Assembly (NCBI RefSeq): GCF_010882175.1
Contig: NZ_WKLH01000001.1
Location: forward strand, 823,464 to 887,463
Direction of reading: 5' to 3'
DNA: 64,000 bases
DNA from: Mangrovibacterium lignilyticum
GTDB taxonomy: Bacteria; Bacteroidota; Bacteroidia; Bacteroidales; Prolixibacteraceae
The position numbers were made by a program, and so were the translations under genes. Of the stretch, positions 9,510 to 19,479 are shown piece after piece. Position 1 is the first letter of the stretch, and the number at the start of each line of letters is the position of its first letter. Below the pieces are notes generated by a model that saw nothing but the letters and a program-made list of their open reading frames with translations, searched no databases and was not told the origin of the DNA.

Positions 9510-9806
9510 ATGGAAGTCACCATTTTTACCGACGAACAAAAACAAGCCGCGCGTTTTGCCAAAGCGATGGGACATCCGGTACGCATGTACGTATTGGACT
9601 TGCTCAACAAACAAAGTTGTTGCTATAGCGGTGATTTATCAGATATACTGCCAATTGCAAAGTCGACCCTTTCGCAACATTTAAAGGAATTAAAAGATGC
9701 AGGATTGATTCAGGGAGAAATTGAAGCGCCCAAAGTGAAATATTGCATCAACAAAGAGAATTGGGCTAAAGCGCAAAAACTGTTTCAAGCCTTTCTGGAA
9801 TACTAA
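9510..9806 (+). CDS. arsR: ArsR/SmtB-family arsenical-responsive repressor (ArsR1)
   Basis: The 98-residue winged-helix protein should repress the arsenical genes that follow and release DNA on binding trivalent arsenic. A helix-turn-helix is seen in IAKSTLSQHLKELKDAGLI (residues 49-67). Possible metal ligands are the adjacent Cys37-Cys38 in KQSCCYSGDL and Cys79 in VKYCINK; the Cys pair lies in the helix where classical ArsR keeps its CxC motif. It is the first gene of arsR-arsE-arsF-arsG-arsP and lies between two copies of a TGTTCG-N8-CGAACA palindrome, which is its probable operator. The inducer cannot be told exactly: inorganic arsenite or organoarsenicals are both possible. Confidence 0.9.
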   Translation: MEVTIFTDEQKQAARFAKAMGHPVRMYVLDLLNKQSCCYSGDLSDILPIAKSTLSQHLKELKDAGLIQGEIEAPKVKYCINKENWAKAQKLFQAFLEY

Positions 9807-10115: not shown

Positions 10116-10550
10116 ATGAAAAAAACCATCGTCACCTTAACCATTCTATTCATCGGACATTTTTGGGTCAGTGCGCAATGCTGCGACAAGTCAACAGCAA
10201 AAGTTGAAAAAGACAGTGCATGCTGCACCGATTCAGTAAAAGCAACAACAGACGTGAAAGCTTATTATTTTCATGCGACCAGACGCTGCGAAACCTGCCA
10301 GGCTGTGGAAGAAGTGAGCAAAGAAGCCATTCAGGAATACTACGGTAATCAAGTTGAATTTTTGTCTGTGAATAGCGATGAAGATGCCAGCGAAACCTTG
10401 ATCGAAAAATACAAGGTCAGCGGCCAAACACTGATCATTGTGAAAGGCAACAAAATCATCGACCTAACCACAGATGCCTTTTTAAACGCTCGCACCAACC
10501 CTGAAAAGTTAAAAGCAAAAATTAAAGCCAGCATCGATCCGCTGATCTAA
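10116..10550 (+). CDS. arsF: ArsF-like secreted thioredoxin-fold protein
   Basis: The 144-residue protein has a signal peptide ending near VSAQ (residue 21), so it should act in the periplasm or be membrane-attached. Three cysteine pairs follow: Cys22-Cys23, Cys36-Cys37 and the CxxC Cys58-Glu-Thr-Cys61 in ATRRCETCQAVEE. The rest (YHATRR to VSGQTLIIVKGN) has a thioredoxin-like pattern. Proteins of this kind are annotated as the ArsF family, a proposed subunit for nitrophenylarsenical reduction. The paired N-terminal cysteines could bind metalloid or relay electrons from the DsbD-like ArsG encoded immediately downstream, one base after the stop. The detailed function is inference. Confidence 0.7.
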   Translation: MKKTIVTLTILFIGHFWVSAQCCDKSTAKVEKDSACCTDSVKATTDVKAYYFHATRRCETCQAVEEVSKEAIQEYYGNQVEFLSVNSDEDASETLIEKYKVSGQTLIIVKGNKIIDLTTDAFLNARTNPEKLKAKIKASIDPLI

Positions 10551-10551
10551 A

Positions 10552-11250
10552 ATGGAAACGCTACAAAACATACTGGAAAATTCACAGCTCCCGATTTTAT
10601 CGGCCTTCATTTTGGGTTTAATGACGGCTATCAGCCCTTGTCCGCTGGCAACCAATATCACTGCCATTGGCTATATCAGTAAGGATTTAAACAGCCGGAA
10701 ACGCGTTTTCATGAATGGTCTAATTTACACGGCAGGCCGGGCTGTTTCCTATACTGCAATCGGACTATTGTTTTTCTTCGGAGCAAGTCAATTCGAGTTT
10801 TCTGGTTTTATCCAACAATGGGGCGAAAAACTGCTTGGCCCGCTACTCATCGTAATCGGACTGTTCATGTTAGGCATTTTTTCAATCACCATCCCGGGTT
10901 TAACCAAACTGACCGATAAAGTTGAAACGAAAGCACGAAAAGGTTTTTGGGGCGCTTTACTTCTTGGAATTGTTTTTGCCCTGGCATTTTGCCCCTACAG
11001 TGGAGTTCTCTACTTCGGCATTCTTATACCGATGACGATTAGCAGCAGTCAGGGACTCATTCTCCCTGCCATTTTCGCTTTGGCAACCGGGATTCCGGTA
11101 ATTGTTTTCGCGTGGTTCATCGCCTATAGCATCGGATCAATCGGGACGGTATACAATCGAATAAAGACCTTTGAAACTTGGTTTCGTCGCATCGTTGCCT
11201 TGCTTTTCATTGGTGTGGGCATCTACTATTCAGTCATCTTCTATTTCTAA
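10552..11250 (+). CDS. arsG: ArsG-like DsbD/CcdA-type membrane protein
   Basis: The 232-residue protein has six hydrophobic segments and belongs to the DsbD/CcdA-like superfamily. One cysteine lies in each half, Cys30 in TAISPCPLATNI and Cys147 in LAFCPYSGVLY. This is the arrangement that carries reducing equivalents across the membrane in CcdA. The same family is annotated as ArsG, a proposed efflux permease for aromatic aminoarsenicals. Both ideas, export or electron transfer to the periplasmic ArsF, are compatible with the sequence. The start codon overlaps closely with arsF, and the next gene begins 7 bases after the stop, so the genes are translationally coupled. Confidence 0.75.
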   Translation: METLQNILENSQLPILSAFILGLMTAISPCPLATNITAIGYISKDLNSRKRVFMNGLIYTAGRAVSYTAIGLLFFFGASQFEFSGFIQQWGEKLLGPLLIVIGLFMLGIFSITIPGLTKLTDKVETKARKGFWGALLLGIVFALAFCPYSGVLYFGILIPMTISSSQGLILPAIFALATGIPVIVFAWFIAYSIGSIGTVYNRIKTFETWFRRIVALLFIGVGIYYSVIFYF

Positions 11251-11257
11251 AATCAGT

Positions 11258-12301
11258 ATGAAAATTAATCTTCTCGCACCGGCACAATCGAACAGAAATT
11301 GGTTACTTCCCCTGTTTCTGTTACCGCTATGGTTACTTCTATATTTGAATCTCCACCCGATCTCCGATTTCATGATTGATCGGATCTTCTACCTGAAGCC
11401 CGGGACGCACCTGACTGAATCAATTCGCTTCTTTGTTTTTGAAGTTCCCAAAGTAATGCTCTTGCTGGTACTCATCATCTTTATGGTTGGCATTGTGCGG
11501 AGTTATTTTTCGCCTGAGAAAACCCGAAAACTGTTGGAAGGCAAATCGCTTTTTACCGGCAACATCATGGCGGCCTCGTTAGGAATTGTTACTCCTTTTT
11601 GTTCTTGCTCGGCCATCCCTTTATTCCTGGGCTTTGTGGAAGCTGGAATTCCAATTGGCGTCACTTTTTCATTCTTAATTGCCGCCCCGCTGGTCAATGA
11701 AGTTGCCTTAGTGTTACTAATCGGATTATTTGGCTGGAAAGTAGCACTAATATACGCCTCAACCGGCCTGATCATAGCCATCCTCGCTGGCTGGCTGATC
11801 GGCAAACTAAAGCTCGAAAAATATGTTGAAGCATGGGTTTTCCAGGTAAAAACGAACCAGGAATACGCCGAAGAGGGAAAAGTTCCATTTTCAGAGCGAC
11901 TCAAACAAGGCTACCTAGCGGTAAAAGAGATCGTCGGTAAAATCTGGATTTATATCCTGATCGGTATTGCAGTAGGAGCCGGTGCTCATGGCTATGTTCC
12001 TGAAGATTTTATGAGCTCATTGTTAGGAAGCGAACACTGGTATGGAGTACCACTCGCCATTTTGATTGGTGTTCCGATGTACTCAAACGCTGCCGGAATT
12101 ATCCCCATAGTCAGCGTACTCATCGAAAAAGGCGTATCGCTGGGAACGGCGCTAGCTTTTATGATGTCGGTCATCGCCTTGTCGCTGCCCGAAATAATCA
12201 TTCTGAAAAAAGTCTTAAAATGGCCATTGATCGCCACTTTTATTGCTATTGTTGCCTGCGGCATTTTGATTGTTGGATTTTCCTTCAACCTAATCTTATA
12301 G
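11258..12301 (+). CDS. arsP: ArsP-type organoarsenical/metal permease (DUF318)
   Basis: The 347-residue membrane protein carries the family motif TPFCSCSAIPLFLGF followed by GIPIGVTFSFLIAAPLVNEV, typical of DUF318 permeases such as ArsP, which exports trivalent organoarsenicals. The second half repeats the pattern with GVPMYSNAAGIIPI and SLPEIIILKKV. About eight membrane helices are seen. The start is the ATG at 11258; a longer frame from a TTG at 11171 would overlap arsG by 80 bases and was rejected. A related branch of the same family exports other soft metals, so the substrate is inferred from neighbours. The vicinal Cys in CSC is a likely ligand site. Confidence 0.8.
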   Translation: MKINLLAPAQSNRNWLLPLFLLPLWLLLYLNLHPISDFMIDRIFYLKPGTHLTESIRFFVFEVPKVMLLLVLIIFMVGIVRSYFSPEKTRKLLEGKSLFTGNIMAASLGIVTPFCSCSAIPLFLGFVEAGIPIGVTFSFLIAAPLVNEVALVLLIGLFGWKVALIYASTGLIIAILAGWLIGKLKLEKYVEAWVFQVKTNQEYAEEGKVPFSERLKQGYLAVKEIVGKIWIYILIGIAVGAGAHGYVPEDFMSSLLGSEHWYGVPLAILIGVPMYSNAAGIIPIVSVLIEKGVSLGTALAFMMSVIALSLPEIIILKKVLKWPLIATFIAIVACGILIVGFSFNLIL

Positions 12302-12347: not shown

Positions 12348-13121
12348 ATGAAATCTGTCTCACTCGGTTTTATCGGCGGAGGGAGAATTACCCGAATTTT
12401 CCTTCAAGCCTTTCGGCACAAAGCAAGTGAATTTGAGAGTATTGTCGTTTGCGACACCGATGAACTTGTTTTACATGAACTGAAAAATCAATTCCCTGAA
12501 ATCGTTACGACTTCCAATCCAACAGCATGTACCCAACAGCAAATCGTTTTCATCGCCTTGCACCCACCCCAAATAATGCCCGTGCTCGAGGAGATTGGAA
12601 ATGAAATTAGCCCCGAAACGAGCGTTATCTCGCTGGCACCAAAGATTAGTCTGGAAAAGTTGGCATCTAAACTGCCGACACTCAACCTGGCCCGCATGAT
12701 CCCCAATGCAACTTCATATATCAACAAAGGCTACAACCCAATTTGTTTTCATCCTGATTTCTCACCGGAGAAAAAGGCGACACTGCTGTTTTTCATTTCG
12801 CAACTGGGCAAAACATTTGAAACAGAAGAACGAAAACTGGAAAGTTATGCTCTGCTCTCGGCCATGCTACCAACCTACTTCTGGTTTCAATGGAAAGAGT
12901 TACAGGAAATCGGTCAGGAATTAGGTTTGAGTGAAGAAGAAACAAATCATTCGATATATGAAACTTTGAAAGCAGCCAACGAGCTGTATTTCAACTCAGA
13001 ATTGAGCAACAAGGAAGTGACTGACCTGATTCCGGTTAAACCAATTGCCGAGCACGAACCGACAATTAAGGCTTGCCTCCATGATACTTTGGTTCCTCTT
13101 TTCGAAAAAATAAAAGCCTAA
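12348..13121 (+). CDS. ProC-like NAD(P)-dependent oxidoreductase in the arsenic operon
   Basis: The 257-residue protein resembles pyrroline-5-carboxylate reductase: a Rossmann fold beginning VSLGFIGGGRITRIFL (dinucleotide-binding GxGGxR) and a helical dimerisation-like domain from about residue 155. True ProC proteins have Asn after GGG and a conserved C-terminal motif with SPGGTT; here Arg replaces Asn and the SPGGTT segment is absent (the matching region reads ELSNKEVTDLIPV). It is therefore likely a paralogue with another substrate. It sits 46 bases after arsP, in the same direction and ahead of the terminator at 13127, so it is probably the last gene of the arsenical operon. It might supply reducing power or act on an arsenical-linked compound; this is not established. 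Confidence 0.6.
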   Translation: MKSVSLGFIGGGRITRIFLQAFRHKASEFESIVVCDTDELVLHELKNQFPEIVTTSNPTACTQQQIVFIALHPPQIMPVLEEIGNEISPETSVISLAPKISLEKLASKLPTLNLARMIPNATSYINKGYNPICFHPDFSPEKKATLLFFISQLGKTFETEERKLESYALLSAMLPTYFWFQWKELQEIGQELGLSEEETNHSIYETLKAANELYFNSELSNKEVTDLIPVKPIAEHEPTIKACLHDTLVPLFEKIKA

Positions 13122-13195: not shown

Positions 13196-13765
13196 TTACT
13201 TCCTGGCAATAAAAGGCTTACCGGTTTTCAGAATTTCTCTTCCGGCTAAATCGTTTAAAATGATAGCAGCCATCATATACCACGCTGCAAAAGCACAAAC
13301 AATCAGAACGATAGCAGCAACCGTATTCATTACAGGAAAACCGAAATGGGCAAGGTCCAGAAAAATAAAACCTGCCGTTAAAGTCGCGAATGTCACAAAC
13401 ATCGCAGTGTGTATAAAGAATGAACCGACCAGGAAAATTGCTGTAATCAGAGTCCAGGCAACTAAAAAGAAGCCTACATCGGTATGTGATGACGGATAAA
13501 CATTCAGATGATTCAAAATCCAAATGATACCTAATCCAATCCAAAAAGACCCGTAGGCTGAAAATGCGGCAAATCCGAAATTATTGCCCATTTTATGTTC
13601 CAAAAATCCGGCGATCAGCTGAGCAGTTCCTCCAAAAATAATACCCATCGCCAAAATCGGACCTAGTCCAACCCATCCCAAATTGTGGAACTGTAGTAGA
13701 AGTGTTGTCAAACCGAAGCCCCCCAGTCCTACTACTGCCGGGTTGCCTAATTTAGAATTTTGCAT
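13196..13765 (-). CDS. satP: GPR1/FUN34/SatP-type acetate uptake transporter
   Basis: The 189-residue protein has six membrane helices and the signature NPAVVGLGGFGLTTLLLQ of the acetate uptake transporter family (AceTr), near the N-terminus. It should import acetate and perhaps succinate by proton symport in the inner membrane. A minus-strand box TACTTTTG lies 33 bases upstream (13798-13805), so it probably has its own promoter. It interrupts the two groups of arsenic genes on the opposite strand; no functional link to arsenic is known to me. The family assignment is firm, the exact substrate less so. Confidence 0.85.
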   Translation of the reverse strand: MQNSKLGNPAVVGLGGFGLTTLLLQFHNLGWVGLGPILAMGIIFGGTAQLIAGFLEHKMGNNFGFAAFSAYGSFWIGLGIIWILNHLNVYPSSHTDVGFFLVAWTLITAIFLVGSFFIHTAMFVTFATLTAGFIFLDLAHFGFPVMNTVAAIVLIVCAFAAWYMMAAIILNDLAGREILKTGKPFIARK

Positions 13766-13805: not shown

Positions 13806-14035
13806 AACAATATTCCGTGAACGATAACGGGCAGCAAAAAAATAAATCGCAGCTGACCTTAGTGAATTGCAAAAAATTACTGCTAACAGACCAAATTCAT
13901 ACACCAATGTTCCTATCCCAAGCACAAAGAAGACATTTGTTAATTAATCAGCAGATAAAAGAGCATTTTAATCAATTCTATCTCACAACTAATAAATAGT
14001 GTTTACTTTTCGGAGAAATCAAAAAAACCAAAGCA

Positions 14036-14434
14036 ATGACTGACACTGATATTCAACTCGTCCAAAAAACATATCCCAAACTTAAAGTTATGGCTCCCCG
14101 TTTAGCCAAGTATTTTTATAACCGGATTGCCGAGCTTGACTCAACTCTTGAGTCTCTTTTCCAAGCTGACAGTGCAAGTAACGGGGCCGCTTTTGCTGAA
14201 CTTTTGGACCAGGGAGTCGCTTCTATCGAAGATCCGAAATCATTACTTCCGGAAATCAAAAAACTGGAGGCAAAACTGACCTATTATAATATTAAGGCCG
14301 ACTGTTTAAATACGATTGGAGTGGTTTTCGTTGACACATTAGCCTTTGGTTTTGGAAACGAATTCAATGCGCAAATTCAGAATCCGTGGGTGAACGCCTA
14401 CAAAGAATATGCAGCCTTATTTTTCGCCGAATAA
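14036..14434 (+). CDS. Globin-fold protein without any histidine
   Basis: The 132-residue protein follows the pattern of bacterial single-domain globins: an A-helix VQKTYPKLKVMAPRLAKYFYNRIAELDSTLESLF, a later KKLEAKLTYYNIKADCLNTIG, and a C-terminal NPWVNAYKEYAALF. In haem globins of this kind the segment before Tyr-Gly-Val contains the proximal His (RRHxxYGV); the matching residue here is Leu81. The protein has no histidine at all and one cysteine (Cys90), so normal haem binding is unlikely. It could be a haem-free sensor or structural globin, or bind another ligand. It lies just upstream of arsR2-arsC-acr3 but is separated from it by the arsR2 operators, so it is probably its own transcript. 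The globin call is by pattern and moderately sure. Confidence 0.6.
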   Translation: MTDTDIQLVQKTYPKLKVMAPRLAKYFYNRIAELDSTLESLFQADSASNGAAFAELLDQGVASIEDPKSLLPEIKKLEAKLTYYNIKADCLNTIGVVFVDTLAFGFGNEFNAQIQNPWVNAYKEYAALFFAE

Positions 14435-14484: not shown

Positions 14485-14528
14485 GACGTATTTTTACGTC
14501 GTTTTGTTTTATGACGTATTTTTACGTC
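14485..14528 (+). promoter_or_regulatory. Tandem ArsR2 operators
   Basis: The 16-base palindromic sequence GACGTATTTTTACGTC occurs twice, at 14485-14500 and 14513-14528, 28 bases apart centre to centre. A box TCGTTTTG close to the -7 consensus lies between them. An ATG at 14511 lies at the edge of the second copy, so the ArsR2 start was moved to 14544. The sequence is unrelated to the ArsR1 operator. Confidence 0.75.
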
Positions 14529-14543
14529 CTAAAGCAACGCGAT

Positions 14544-14882
14544 ATGACATCAGCAAAAGTTGAATTATTTGAGGAAAACCTACAGCAGGCAGCCGGCTAT
14601 TTCAAAGCTTTGGCACACCCCGCCCGTTTGGCTATTCTGAAATACCTGGCCGAATCGAAAGTTTGCATCTCCGGCGACATCTCCAACGAGTTACCGCTCA
14701 GCCGGACCACCGTCAATCAACATCTGAAAGAATTAAAAAACACGGGATTGATCAAAGGATCGATCGATGGTGTGAAAGTTAATTATTGCCTCAATCCGGC
14801 AAAAGTTAAAGAGCTGAAACAAATTCTCGGCGATTTCTTAAATACAGTTGAACTACCGGAAAAATTCAACTGCAGAGACTAA
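14544..14882 (+). CDS. arsR: ArsR-family repressor (ArsR2)
   Basis: The 112-residue winged-helix protein (MTSAKVELFEEN start) is a second ArsR/SmtB-type repressor. The recognition helix is in LSRTTVNQHLKELKNTGLI, and the ALAHPARLAILKYLAESKVCISGDIS segment is typical. Cysteines are present at VCISGD, NYCLNP and near the C-terminus (NCRD), compatible with arsenite sensing. It directly precedes arsC and acr3 in the same direction (65 bases before arsC) and is preceded by two copies of GACGTATTTTTACGTC. It is about as long as ArsR1 and similar in outline but has a different operator, so the two circuits should not cross-talk strongly. Confidence 0.9.
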   Translation: MTSAKVELFEENLQQAAGYFKALAHPARLAILKYLAESKVCISGDISNELPLSRTTVNQHLKELKNTGLIKGSIDGVKVNYCLNPAKVKELKQILGDFLNTVELPEKFNCRD

Positions 14883-14947: not shown

Positions 14948-15373
14948 ATGAAAGTCTTAATTCTTTGTACTGGCAACAGCTGCCGCAGCCAAATGGCTCA
15001 TGGTTTTTTACAGTCGTTCGATTCTAATCTTACAGTTTGTTCTGCCGGGACCGAAGCTTCAGGCAAACTAAACACCAAAGCTGTTCAGGTGATGAAAGAA
15101 GCCGGCATTGATATCAGTAATCACACTTCTGATTCGGTTCAAACCTATTTGAATGACGAATGGGATTATGTCATCACTGTTTGTGGCGGCGCTAACGAAG
15201 CTTGCCCGGCCTTTATCGGCAAAGTAAAACACCGTCTGCACATTGGATTCGACGATCCATCACACGCTGTTGGAACAGACGAGTTTATTATGAGTGAGTT
15301 TTACCGCGTTCGCGATGAAATCAAAGCCGGATTTTACGATTTCTATTTGAAAAACATTAAAAATGAGCAGTAA
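14948..15373 (+). CDS. arsC: Arsenate reductase, thioredoxin-coupled low-molecular-weight phosphatase type
   Basis: The 141-residue cytoplasmic enzyme reduces arsenate to arsenite. The P-loop is CTGNSCRS with nucleophile Cys7 and Arg13. Cys79 and Cys86 in [13 protein letters not shown] are seven apart, the spacing of the Cys82/Cys89 pair in staphylococcal ArsC, which makes thioredoxin the likely electron donor. It overlaps the next gene acr3 by 11 bases, so the two are translationally coupled and arsenite is passed to efflux. The first Met is right at an ATG with ordinary Bacteroidetes context. Confidence 0.9.
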
Positions 15374-16406
15374 TAAGCGACTCTCTTTTCTTGACCGCTA
15401 TCTGACCTTTTGGATTCTGGCAACTATGTTGGCCGGAGTTATGATTGGCTACCTGTCTCCGGAAATAAGCGACTTCTGGAATCGCTTCCAGAGTGGGTCA
15501 ACGAATGTTCCCCTGGCAATTGGACTGATTCTGATGATGTATCCACCGCTGGCGAAGGTAAAATATGAGGAACTGGGAAGAGTATTCAAAAATGTCAAAC
15601 TATTGGGGATTTCGCTGATACAAAACTGGCTGATTGGGCCGCTGTTGATGTTTGTATTGGCGGTGCTTTTTCTGCGCGATTACCCGGAATACATGGCTGG
15701 TGTCATTCTAATCGGGTTGGCACGTTGTATTGCGATGGTGATTGTTTGGAACGACCTGGCCGAGGGAAACCGCGAATATGCGGCCGGACTGGTAGCTTTC
15801 AACTCCATCTTTCAAATCCTGTTTTTCTCGGTTTATGCCTGGGTTTTTCTCGGAATTCTCCCCGACTTGATTGGGCTGCAAACATTTCAGGTTGACATTA
15901 CCATCGGTCAAATTGCTGAATCTGTTCTCATCTACCTGGGAATTCCATTTGCTGCCGGTTTCCTCACGCGATTCAGCCTGATTCGTCTGAAGGGAGAGGA
16001 ATGGTACAACGAAAAATTCATTCCCCGAATCAGCCCGATTACACTGATCGCCCTGCTATTCACCATTTTTGTGATGTTCTCTTTTAAAGGAGAATACATT
16101 GTGAAAATCCCCATGGATGTGGTGCGCATCGCTATTCCACTGGTGATCTACTTTGTCATCATGTTTGTGGTTTCCTTTTTTATGGGAAAGAAATCGGGCG
16201 CGGATTACGCAAAAACAGCGACCATTTCCTTTACCGCAGCATCCAACAATTTTGAGTTGGCCATTGCTGTGGCCATAGCCGTCTTCGGCATCAACTCGGG
16301 CGAAGCTTTTGCGGCTGTTATTGGCCCGCTGGTCGAAGTTCCGGTACTCATCTCGCTGGTCAACCTGGCCTTTTGGTTCAAGAAGCGGTATTTTTCGATC
16401 GCTTAA
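15363..16406 (+). CDS. acr3: ACR3-type arsenite efflux transporter
   Basis: The 347-residue inner-membrane protein has about ten helices and is the arsenite exporter of the BASS/ACR3 family. The key cysteine of the fourth helix is Cys122 in [20 protein letters not shown], and the C-terminal half has the helix-breaking [18 protein letters not shown] motif. It begins inside the 3' end of arsC. A strong terminator follows at 16421-16458. It exports As(III), and possibly Sb(III), produced by ArsC. Confidence 0.92.
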
Positions 16407-17894: not shown

Positions 17895-18106
17895 AACGGT
17901 TTAAAATTTTAATGATTCAAAAATTAGGTTGACATTATTTGGCGAGCCGGACAAAAACGGGGTGAAGGGCAACCAAGCCAATCTCGTGCCTGAAACCCAA
18001 TGAATATTCCGGGAAACCTGTTTTCGAACGCCTCAAGAAATTTTTCGTTATACAAGTTATGCTAATCAAAAATAAAAACCAATGGTTAACTGCTAGAATA
18101 TCAATA

Positions 18107-18425
18107 ATGAACCATTCCCATCCGGAGCGCTTCACCCAGGGAGGCCGGATGAACCGCTCCCGTCCGGAGACCTTCACCCAGGGAGGTCGGATGAACCATT
18201 CCCGTCCGGAGACCTTCACCCATAGAGGCCGGATGAACCGCTCCCTTCCGGAGACCTTCACCCAAGGAGGTCGGATGAACCATTCCCATCCGGAGACCTT
18301 CACCCAGGGAGGCCGGATGAACCGCTCCCATCCGGAGACCTTCACCCATAGAGGCCGGATGAACTGCTCCCGTCCGGAGACCTTCACCCATAGAGGCCGG
18401 ATGAACCGCTCCCGTCCGGAGACCT
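18107..18425. repeat. Tandem array of 42-bp repeats (about 7.6 copies)
   Basis: Seven complete units begin at 18107, 18149, 18191, 18233, 18275, 18317 and 18359, and a partial unit at 18401. Each starts ATGAACC and contains CCGGAGACCTTCACCC and GAGG(C/T)CGG. Units differ at a few fixed positions, e.g. CATTCCC versus CGCTCCC, GGGAGG versus TAGAGG, so they are not freshly copied. Each unit can fold because GACCT and AGGTC are inverted. Because 42 is divisible by three, frames stay open: a 14-residue repeat (M-N-R/H-S-R/H-P-E-T-F-T) on the plus strand and others on the minus strand. It lies between a terminator and the DUF6261-like gene on the minus strand. Confidence 0.85.
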
Positions 18426-18436
18426 GTCCCAACGAA

Positions 18437-18479
18437 AAAAAGGTGCCTCCCCGTTGCGTTAGCTTGGGAAGGCACCTTT
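18437..18479 (-). terminator. Intrinsic terminator at the end of the PUL
   Basis: On the minus strand a stem with arm AAAGGTGCCTTCCC pairs with GGGGAGGCACCTTT followed by a run of seven T. It lies 26 bases after the stop codon of the GH43 gene, and marks the end of the leftward PUL transcription. Confidence 0.85.
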
Positions 18480-18504
18480 CGGATCATCTAAATCCTCGTT
18501 TCTG

Positions 18505-19479
18505 TTAACGAAGGTCTCTCGTCGAGACCCCTTCGAAGGTAATTTTCACCGGTTTAATCAAGCCATCGGCATCGAATTCCACTTTGTCGATACAAGTTAC
18601 ACGGTGATTGGCATCGGTTTCACCCAACGGCCGGCGGTGATAAACAATGTACCAGTCGTCGGTTCCCGGAACATTAATCATCGAATGATGTCCTGCTCCC
18701 GTTGCCACCTGCAGGTCCTGTTTCAGAATTTTCCCAATCCGTTTAAAAGGACCAAAGGGTGAATCGGCAATCGCATACGCAACGCTGTAATCGGGGCCTC
18801 CCCAGCCACCTTCCGACCACATGAAATAATACTTGCCGTTGCGGATAAACATGAAGGGCCCCTCAACGTAACCTTCAGGCGTAATTTCTTTGAACAGGCT
18901 CCCGTCCGCATAGGCTTCAAAGCCGGTAAAGTCGTCCTTCAACCGGACGATATTACAGTGTTGCCAGCCGCCGTAAATCATGTAATACTGACCGTCTTTA
19001 TCGTGAAAAACGAATTGATCGATCGGCTGTGCCCCGTTGTGAAACTTGTCGAGCAAGGGCTTTCCCAGGTAGTCCTTGTACGGTCCTTCCGGCTGATCGG
19101 CAACACCAATACCAATCCCACCTTCTTCCTGATCACTTTGAATATCGTTGGCAGCGAAGAACAGGAAATACTTGCCGTCCTTCTGCACGATCGCCGGTGC
19201 CCACATCGCTTTACGGGCCCATTTCACGGCTTTGTTATCAATCACATGCGCGTGTTTGGTCCAGTTCACCAGATCGGGCGAAGAGAAGCAGTCCATGAAG
19301 GTTTGCTCACCGTACGGAGCCGAATACGTGGGGAATATCCAGTATTTGCTTTCAAATATTGCTCCTTCGGGATCGGCATACCAGCCTTCGACGACGGGAT
19401 TGCCCGAAGTTTCCGGTTGCTGAGCCTTCACTCCGAAAGCCACTAAAAGAAGCCATATAAAAACGCTGACTCTCACCAT
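18505..19479 (-). CDS. Glycoside hydrolase family 43 enzyme, secreted
   Basis: The 324-residue protein has a signal peptide (LLVAFGVKAQ, cut near residue 19). It is a single five-bladed beta-propeller catalytic domain. The three GH43 acidic residues are seen: Asp in GWYADPEG (catalytic base), Asp in QPIDQFVF (pKa modulator) and Glu in GYVEGPF (general acid). It should hydrolyse a furanosidic linkage (alpha-L-arabinofuranose or similar) with inversion. Its start codon overlaps the stop of the GH92 gene upstream by one base, so the two are co-expressed. It is the last gene of the PUL in this direction and is followed by a terminator. Confidence 0.85.
   Translation of the reverse strand: MVRVSVFIWLLLVAFGVKAQQPETSGNPVVEGWYADPEGAIFESKYWIFPTYSAPYGEQTFMDCFSSPDLVNWTKHAHVIDNKAVKWARKAMWAPAIVQKDGKYFLFFAANDIQSDQEEGGIGIGVADQPEGPYKDYLGKPLLDKFHNGAQPIDQFVFHDKDGQYYMIYGGWQHCNIVRLKDDFTGFEAYADGSLFKEITPEGYVEGPFMFIRNGKYYFMWSEGGWGGPDYSVAYAIADSPFGPFKRIGKILKQDLQVATGAGHHSMINVPGTDDWYIVYHRRPLGETDANHRVTCIDKVEFDADGLIKPVKITFEGVSTRDLR

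Follow-up and report, generated by a model that had tools for sequence, protein, structure and literature searches.

In haem-binding globins, the proximal histidine at position F8 holds the haem iron. Globins that do without haem are also known, one of them being pXO1-118, a stand-alone sensor-domain protein. RsbR, pXO1-118, MabR and the phycobiliproteins are named as non-haem globins in PMC11617747 and PMC10151467, the latter describing phycobiliproteins and bilin-associated globins as carrying bilin instead of haem and calling photoglobins non-heme binding. RsbR of Bacillus subtilis is described as having Ala74 at F8 and binding no haem, with a globin domain without helices C and D (PMC4476040). 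Eukaryotic globins without the F8 histidine appear as single sequences in the papers that mention them, namely a Guillardia theta globin termed defective (PMC4101818) and a Drosophila pseudoobscura globin noted in a survey that itself required a proximal histidine at F8 (PMC1457004). The haem-binding globins nearest to the protein described here are HGbRL and HGbI of Methylacidiphilum (PDB 3wfw/3wfx and 3s1i), Vitreoscilla haemoglobin and the globin domain of E. coli flavohaemoglobin. PMC4476040 describes HGbRL with a distal site lined by Leu53 and Leu98 and, in its closed form, with Lys52(E10) acting as haem ligand.

The stretch of DNA analysed in the present study (the window, 64,000 nucleotides of Mangrovibacterium lignilyticum) contains a globin gene in which this histidine is replaced:

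14036..14434, plus strand: gene of a 132-aa single-domain globin, F-type, with Leu81 at F8 (proximal position) and without histidine (open reading frame; Pfam, NCBIfam and PDB matches; predicted structure)
14276..14278, plus strand: Leu81 codon, at F8 (by count along the reading frame; alignment)

The globin gene, its family and its predicted fold

Sequence and predicted fold agree that the product of the window gene is a single-domain globin, which by sequence falls in the F (flavohaemoglobin/Vitreoscilla-type) family. Its plus-strand reading frame is intact while the minus strand of the same interval is interrupted by several stops, and a frameshift or a wrong strand was therefore rejected. 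Similarity to globins of the flavohaemoglobin and Vitreoscilla type extends over the full length. The NCBIfam flavohaemoglobin model PRK13289 matches residues 2-130 with an E-value of 8.8e-12 and 44.6 bits, far under the cut-off of 432 bits of this model, which is built for full-length flavohaemoglobins. In phmmer searches of the PDB, the globin domain of HGbRL (3wfw) aligns without gaps over residues 1-129 (E 7.5e-10) and E. coli flavohaemoglobin (1gvh) matches at E 7.5e-7. A profile of the four globins of the genus, introduced below, finds HGbRL at E 8.1e-13 and further matches, to E 1.2e-5, among flavohaemoglobins, bacterial (Vitreoscilla) haemoglobin and 'haemoglobin-like flavoproteins' including 3s1i. 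The Pfam Globin model PF00042 is the sole Pfam match of the window globin at E <= 10 and, at 19.6 bits, stays under its curated cut-off of 22; at the same threshold it matches all four genus globins, with 2e-6 as the best E-value, and two of the four also show a weak spectrin model (best E 0.056).

Two truncated haemoglobins lie above the Pfam cut-off in the window genome (PF01152 search), so haem globins have not generally been lost there. Searching the same genome with PF00042 gave no match and missed the window globin itself, so that this result does not speak for an absence of other globins.

Among 140 genomes of the family the globin is present in four, all of this genus. The three others (G001, G002 and G003), which include Mangrovibacterium marinum DSM 28823 (L014) and the metagenome-assembled Sunxiuqinia sp. 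SZUA-417 (L015), carry orthologues of 53-56% identity; these four genomes are the whole genus sample. A fifth match in the family, at E 0.008, falls within a frame of 1088 residues and was taken as chance. Wider homologues were collected from 393 order, 395 phylum and 395 class genomes, samples that overlap partly, at thresholds of E <= 0.01, 1e-4 and 1e-6, respectively; such thresholds, applied to a sample of genomes, would pass over histidine-less globins elsewhere that are very divergent. The weak matches L006 and L008-L013 (E 6.8e-4 or worse, with nothing found by blastp or with the matching stretch inside an unrelated-looking frame) were left out of the F8 count, as were duplicates (L032/L032b of L023/L023b, and the L073 and L074 copies of the L068 and L069 genes), so that the 28 tree rows with histidine or tyrosine at F8 represent 26 genes. 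In searches of genome contigs, the single window protein found no relatives and an alignment query found two; searches of viral contigs for globin relatives found none. The plasmid search returned 22 records, all below 60% identity, and 13 of the 20 matches listed are annotated hmpA.

In the tree, the four genus globins group together with support 100/99, and the stem of their clade is 1.88 changes per site long. Long branches meet at this point, as the program warned, and the placement of the clade among its relatives is therefore unsure.

The fold was predicted with AlphaFold2. The window globin, modelled from three sequences, reached a mean pLDDT of 67.9 (52.7-67.9 over five models) and a pTM of 0.62, with helices at residues 3-18, 20-34, 36-46, 50-62, 67-83, 88-109 and 112-130; the model of the M. 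marinum orthologue is better (pLDDT 87.4, pTM 0.80). Both predicted models have the 3-on-3 globin fold and share HGbI (Hell's Gate globin I, 3s1i) as top structural match. For the window model, Foldseek gives a TM of 0.87 at a modest E-value of 1.0e-3, no match being counted below 0.001, and VIA gives Z 18.7 with an rmsd of 1.9 over 131 aligned residues; the M. marinum model gives a Foldseek TM of 0.87 at E 2.8e-4, again modest, and a VIA Z of 18.2 with an rmsd of 2.1 over 131 residues. Since helical models without a clear match typically reach a best VIA Z of about 14, and since HGbRL matches by sequence, a non-globin helical bundle was rejected, and the globin fold proposed in the initial annotation is borne out. 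The best 50 matches listed by Foldseek and by VIA for each model are all haem-binding globins by title; RsbR (2bnl) is not among them, which excludes nothing. Residues 81-86 of the window model have pLDDT values below 50, which would fit a loose F helix, three sequences being too few to rely on for this detail.

Residues of the haem site

Leu81 aligns with the proximal histidine of both HGbRL and E. coli flavohaemoglobin in the PDB phmmer alignments, as the initial annotation had placed it, this position being F8 in the literature. The three orthologues have Leu, Leu and Ile here, and no histidine is found on the F helix of any of the four proteins. The loss is thus not peculiar to one gene, and a one-off loss was rejected. 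Absence of histidine from the entire protein, also claimed at first, holds for the window globin and for a single orthologue; the remaining two contain one and two histidines, located off the F helix. Among 26 distinct wider homologues, F8 is histidine in 25 and tyrosine in one (L072). As judged from these alignments, a residue other than histidine at F8 is a fixed trait of the genus as sampled and is rare elsewhere.

The tyrosine-bearing relative (L072:1495-1914, genome G1180 of the same class) is a single-domain globin with histidine at E7. The 3.3 kb around it hold dehydrogenase-like and secreted-protein-like reading frames and, by eye, no ars gene. A tandem globin pair was seen in another genome (G1005; L069/L074), with the F8 histidine in both members, the second of which heads a long frame of repeated segments that look PAS-like by eye.

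Several other haem-site positions differ between the genus and its relatives. All four genus globins have Phe at residue 98 and Phe at residue 106, where all 26 wider homologues have Leu, and Leu at residue 91, where all 26 have Tyr or Phe. At residue 52 (E10), Ala or Gly in the four stands against Lys, Arg or Gln in the 26. Residue 53 is likewise Phe throughout the genus and Leu in 23 of the wider set, with Ile in L019; Phe53 is less telling because two wider relatives (L023 and L072) also have Phe. E7 (residue 49) is Asn in the window globin and His, His and Tyr in the orthologues, and is Gln in 15 of 16 relatives outside the flavohaemoglobin clade.

HGbRL can be compared residue by residue, since it is co-numbered. 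Phe27 and Phe42, two of its lining residues, are retained in the genus globins, Leu31 is replaced by Ile or Ala (Ala in the three orthologues), and Leu53, Leu98 and Tyr91 have become Phe, Phe and Leu in all four, while Lys52 and Gln49 have given way to the E10 and E7 residues just listed. Lys80 and Tyr83 are present in 4/4, and Tyr28 (B10) in three, with Phe in M. marinum. Most pocket-lining positions remain hydrophobic. The changes in volume go both ways, residues 53 and 98 having grown and residue 31 having shrunk, so the pocket is not plainly filled. The protein resembles HGbRL, HGbI, Vitreoscilla haemoglobin and the flavohaemoglobin domain in sequence family, length, a helix pattern without helix D, Phe42 (4/4) and Tyr28 and Tyr84 (3/4 each), and departs from these haem globins in having Leu or Ile for the F8 histidine and in the loss of the E7 Gln, the E10 Lys and Tyr91. 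The window globin also has no reductase or Roadblock domain. Taken together, the pattern at the haem site fits a protein whose haem chemistry was lost and whose core was preserved.

The same residues bear on the possibility that haem or another tetrapyrrole is still bound through a ligand other than F8, for which Tyr28 (B10), Lys80 (F7), Tyr83/84 or the E7 His or Tyr of the orthologues would be candidates. The E7 residues of the orthologues count against a haem-free reading, as either His or Tyr could hold haem from the distal side, and so do the retention of Tyr28 in three and Lys80 in all four proteins, the hydrophobic lining, a pocket not plainly filled and the haem-binding character of all the best structural matches listed. 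Histidine at E7 in the one other F8 variant (L072) points the same way, and HGbRL, the closest solved relative by sequence, is described with Lys52(E10) opposite its histidine in the closed form (PMC4476040). However, E7 is Asn in the window globin itself, E10 is Ala or Gly in all four, Tyr28 is Phe in M. marinum, and of the candidate ligands only Lys80 and Tyr83 occur in 4/4. We therefore regard continued tetrapyrrole binding as rather unlikely, albeit as the foremost alternative.

The arsenic island around the globin gene

The globin gene lies within a group of arsenic resistance genes:

9510..9806, plus strand: first arsR-family regulator of the island (family model matches)
10116..10550, plus strand: ArsF-family thioredoxin-like protein (NF040494 above cut-off)
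10552..11250, plus strand: ArsG-family permease (NF040495 above cut-off)
11171..12301, plus strand: ArsP_1-family permease (PF03773, E 1.1e-72)
12348..13121, plus strand: ProC-like NADP oxidoreductase, between arsP and the globin gene in the window and G003 (family model matches)
13196..13765, minus strand: acetate uptake transporter, divergent from the globin gene (family model matches)
14544..14882, plus strand: arsR, ArsR/SmtB-family repressor (scanned from 14511)
14948..15373, plus strand: arsC, thioredoxin-type arsenate reductase-like (TIGR02691, E 4.6e-39; 133.6 bits, under the cut-off of 174.3)
15363..16406, plus strand: acr3, arsenite efflux transporter (TIGR00832, 458.2 bits, above cut-off)

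The adjacency to an arsenic operon pointed out in the initial annotation is conserved, the globin gene standing directly upstream of arsR-arsC-acr3 in identical order in all four genus genomes. The arsF, arsG and arsP genes are found upstream of it in three of the four; the SZUA-417 contig extends 164 bp upstream of the globin gene. In M. marinum arsP precedes the globin gene, and in the window and G003 the proC-like gene and the acetate transporter gene intervene. In the family, arsR relatives occur widely (128 of the 140 genomes carry one), and no globin was found within up to about 1.5 kb on either side of 26 arsR loci from other genera of the family (L041-L067 without L043, taken among the best-scoring of the 128 genomes, four with shortened flanks). 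Genome G177, from another genus, carries M20 peptidase, arsR, arsF, arsG, arsP and arsR in this order at L079, with arsP directly before arsR and no globin; in L053, also of another genus, the proC-like gene lies between arsP and arsR. The simplest history would be an insertion of the globin gene beside arsR in the ancestor of the genus. Synteny exceeds the ars genes, with amtB and a peptidase gene upstream and GH43- or GH92-type genes downstream, and the conserved linkage is therefore weak evidence of a shared function. Between genes further downstream, window positions 17935-18508 form a repetitive tandem array that is open in several frames, with a counterpart in M. marinum (L014:9836-10549).

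The intervals on either side of the globin gene contain motifs that may relate to regulation:

13930..14035, plus strand: globin upstream region with weakly conserved motifs, candidate promoter of its own (shared 14-mer search)
14485..14500, no strand: dyad GACGTATTTTTACGTC, operator-like, before arsR (motif analysis)
14513..14528, no strand: second GACGTATTTTTACGTC dyad copy, 28 bp on, inside the listed arsR reading frame (motif analysis)

Because the second dyad falls inside the listed arsR frame (ATG at 14511), translation of arsR probably starts at 14544, as in the orthologues. Both window dyads are perfect, and none of 100 window shuffles contained two such sites at up to one mismatch. 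The three other genus members have pairs 28 bp apart at the corresponding position, imperfect ones in G003. The core dyad was also seen in three of the four loci of other genera inspected (L041, L042, L044 and L064); the dyads thus seem to be arsR's own and older than the globin. With similar pairs in other genera of the family, the pair is a good candidate ArsR operator. They lie between the globin gene and arsR, so that the globin gene stands before the operator-like sites and not behind them. Upstream of the globin gene, TGTTAA is found about 98 bp before the start, and TAAATAGTGTTTAC, 43 bp before it, is exact in SZUA-417 and has two mismatches in M. marinum; in G003 it is not at that place, the best copy elsewhere having five mismatches. 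The best shared 14-mer upstream has seven mismatches in total, which none of 100 single-base shuffles equalled (minimum 8). The globin gene may therefore have its own promoter.

This arrangement bears on whether the globin is a dedicated accessory of arsenic resistance, that is, a regulator or protective partner for ArsR, ArsC or Acr3 made together with the ars genes. Its invariable place before arsR-arsC-acr3 in the genus, the arsF, arsG and arsP genes upstream in three of the four and its absence from all 26 arsR loci of other genera, as also at L079, would agree with such a role. However, arsR is present in 128 of 140 family genomes and the globin in four, which means that the ars system works without it, and the operator-like dyads come after the globin gene. 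Arsenite binding by cysteines was rejected, as the window globin has one cysteine and the three orthologues have none; a conserved cysteine for arsenite is thus lacking. We consider a dedicated accessory quite unlikely. More generally, a link between the globin and the arsenic response is a possibility raised by position alone, and is kept at low probability because of the wider synteny, the widespread ars clusters without a globin and the downstream operator-like sites.

Selection on the gene and its possible role

The reading frame is intact in all four genomes. Between the orthologues, globin dN is 0.18-0.36, and dS is saturated and inestimable by NG86 in all but one of the six pairs, for which it is 1.8 (1.15 by YN00); for comparison, dN is 0.02-0.05 in arsC and 0.04-0.07 in acr3. 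Identity to the window's copy is 53-55% for the globin, 73-80% for arsR and 93-96% for arsC, the globin being the fastest of the four genes compared. Invariant columns number 52 of 132 and include Phe98 and Leu91, both new to this lineage. These values indicate that the globin is under purifying selection yet fast-evolving, which agrees with the earlier view of an intact gene unlikely to be decaying; its description as well conserved in outline is limited by the gene's evolving faster than its neighbours. A former haem globin drifting towards death since its ligand was lost, a reading already disfavoured, would explain the fast rate and the long stem but is very improbable in view of the four intact frames, dN well under dS and the invariant columns.

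On balance, the window gene probably encodes an F-family globin whose haem function was lost in the ancestor of the Mangrovibacterium-like genus and which has been kept by selection for another job. As the loss at F8 and the position beside the ars genes are common to the genus relatives, reuse of a globin for a haem-less job seems the probable course. A haem globin would have lost its F8 histidine in the genus ancestor, with other haem-site positions changing in the same lineage, and the protein would now fold without haem, or without histidine-ligated haem. Since RsbR, with Ala at this position, binds no haem, the window globin is by analogy most likely haem-free or else an unusual binder. 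Because the protein has no output domain, its action would depend on contact with a partner protein or on a small hydrophobic ligand held in the remodelled pocket, in the manner of non-haem globins elsewhere.

The initial annotation had likened the protein to the RsbR/RsbN signalling globins. The likeness goes as far as the globin fold and the replaced F8 histidine, and the assignment itself is not supported: no RsbR-type Pfam model matches the window globin or any other genus member at E <= 10, RsbR has a STAS domain for which 132 residues leave no room, and the nearest relatives are F-family globins. Because these relatives by sequence are haem-binding, the loss, while resembling RsbR-type non-haem globins in principle, looks like a separate one within the bacterial F family. 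By description, the Bacillus pXO1-118 protein and the N-domain of MabR, given as non-haem globins in PMC11617747, share with it the proposed lack of haem, and the globins of Guillardia theta and Drosophila pseudoobscura the missing F8 histidine. The genus globins differ from phycobiliproteins, bilin-associated globins and photoglobins in having no Pfam match to such families.

A further, more speculative possibility, which we hold to be unlikely, is that a recruited haem globin lost its ligand within the arsenic island and now serves the arsenic response as a haem-free sensor or chaperone, or that its pocket serves a ligand new to globins. The titles and abstract openings of the open papers searched mention no globin in an ars operon and, as far as this literature shows, an arsenic-response globin would be the first globin role in metalloid resistance.

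By description, the bacterial globins known to lack haem are distant branches; the loss of haem function proposed here would sit within the classical family of bacterial haemoglobins. Among the genomes searched, the F8 loss is confined to one genus, apart from the single relative with tyrosine at F8. A survey such as that of PMC1457004, which is described as demanding the F8 histidine, would have discarded the window globin. With a stand-alone protein under selection and histidine-bearing relatives at hand, the step from a haem globin to a haem-free protein could be studied in this lineage.
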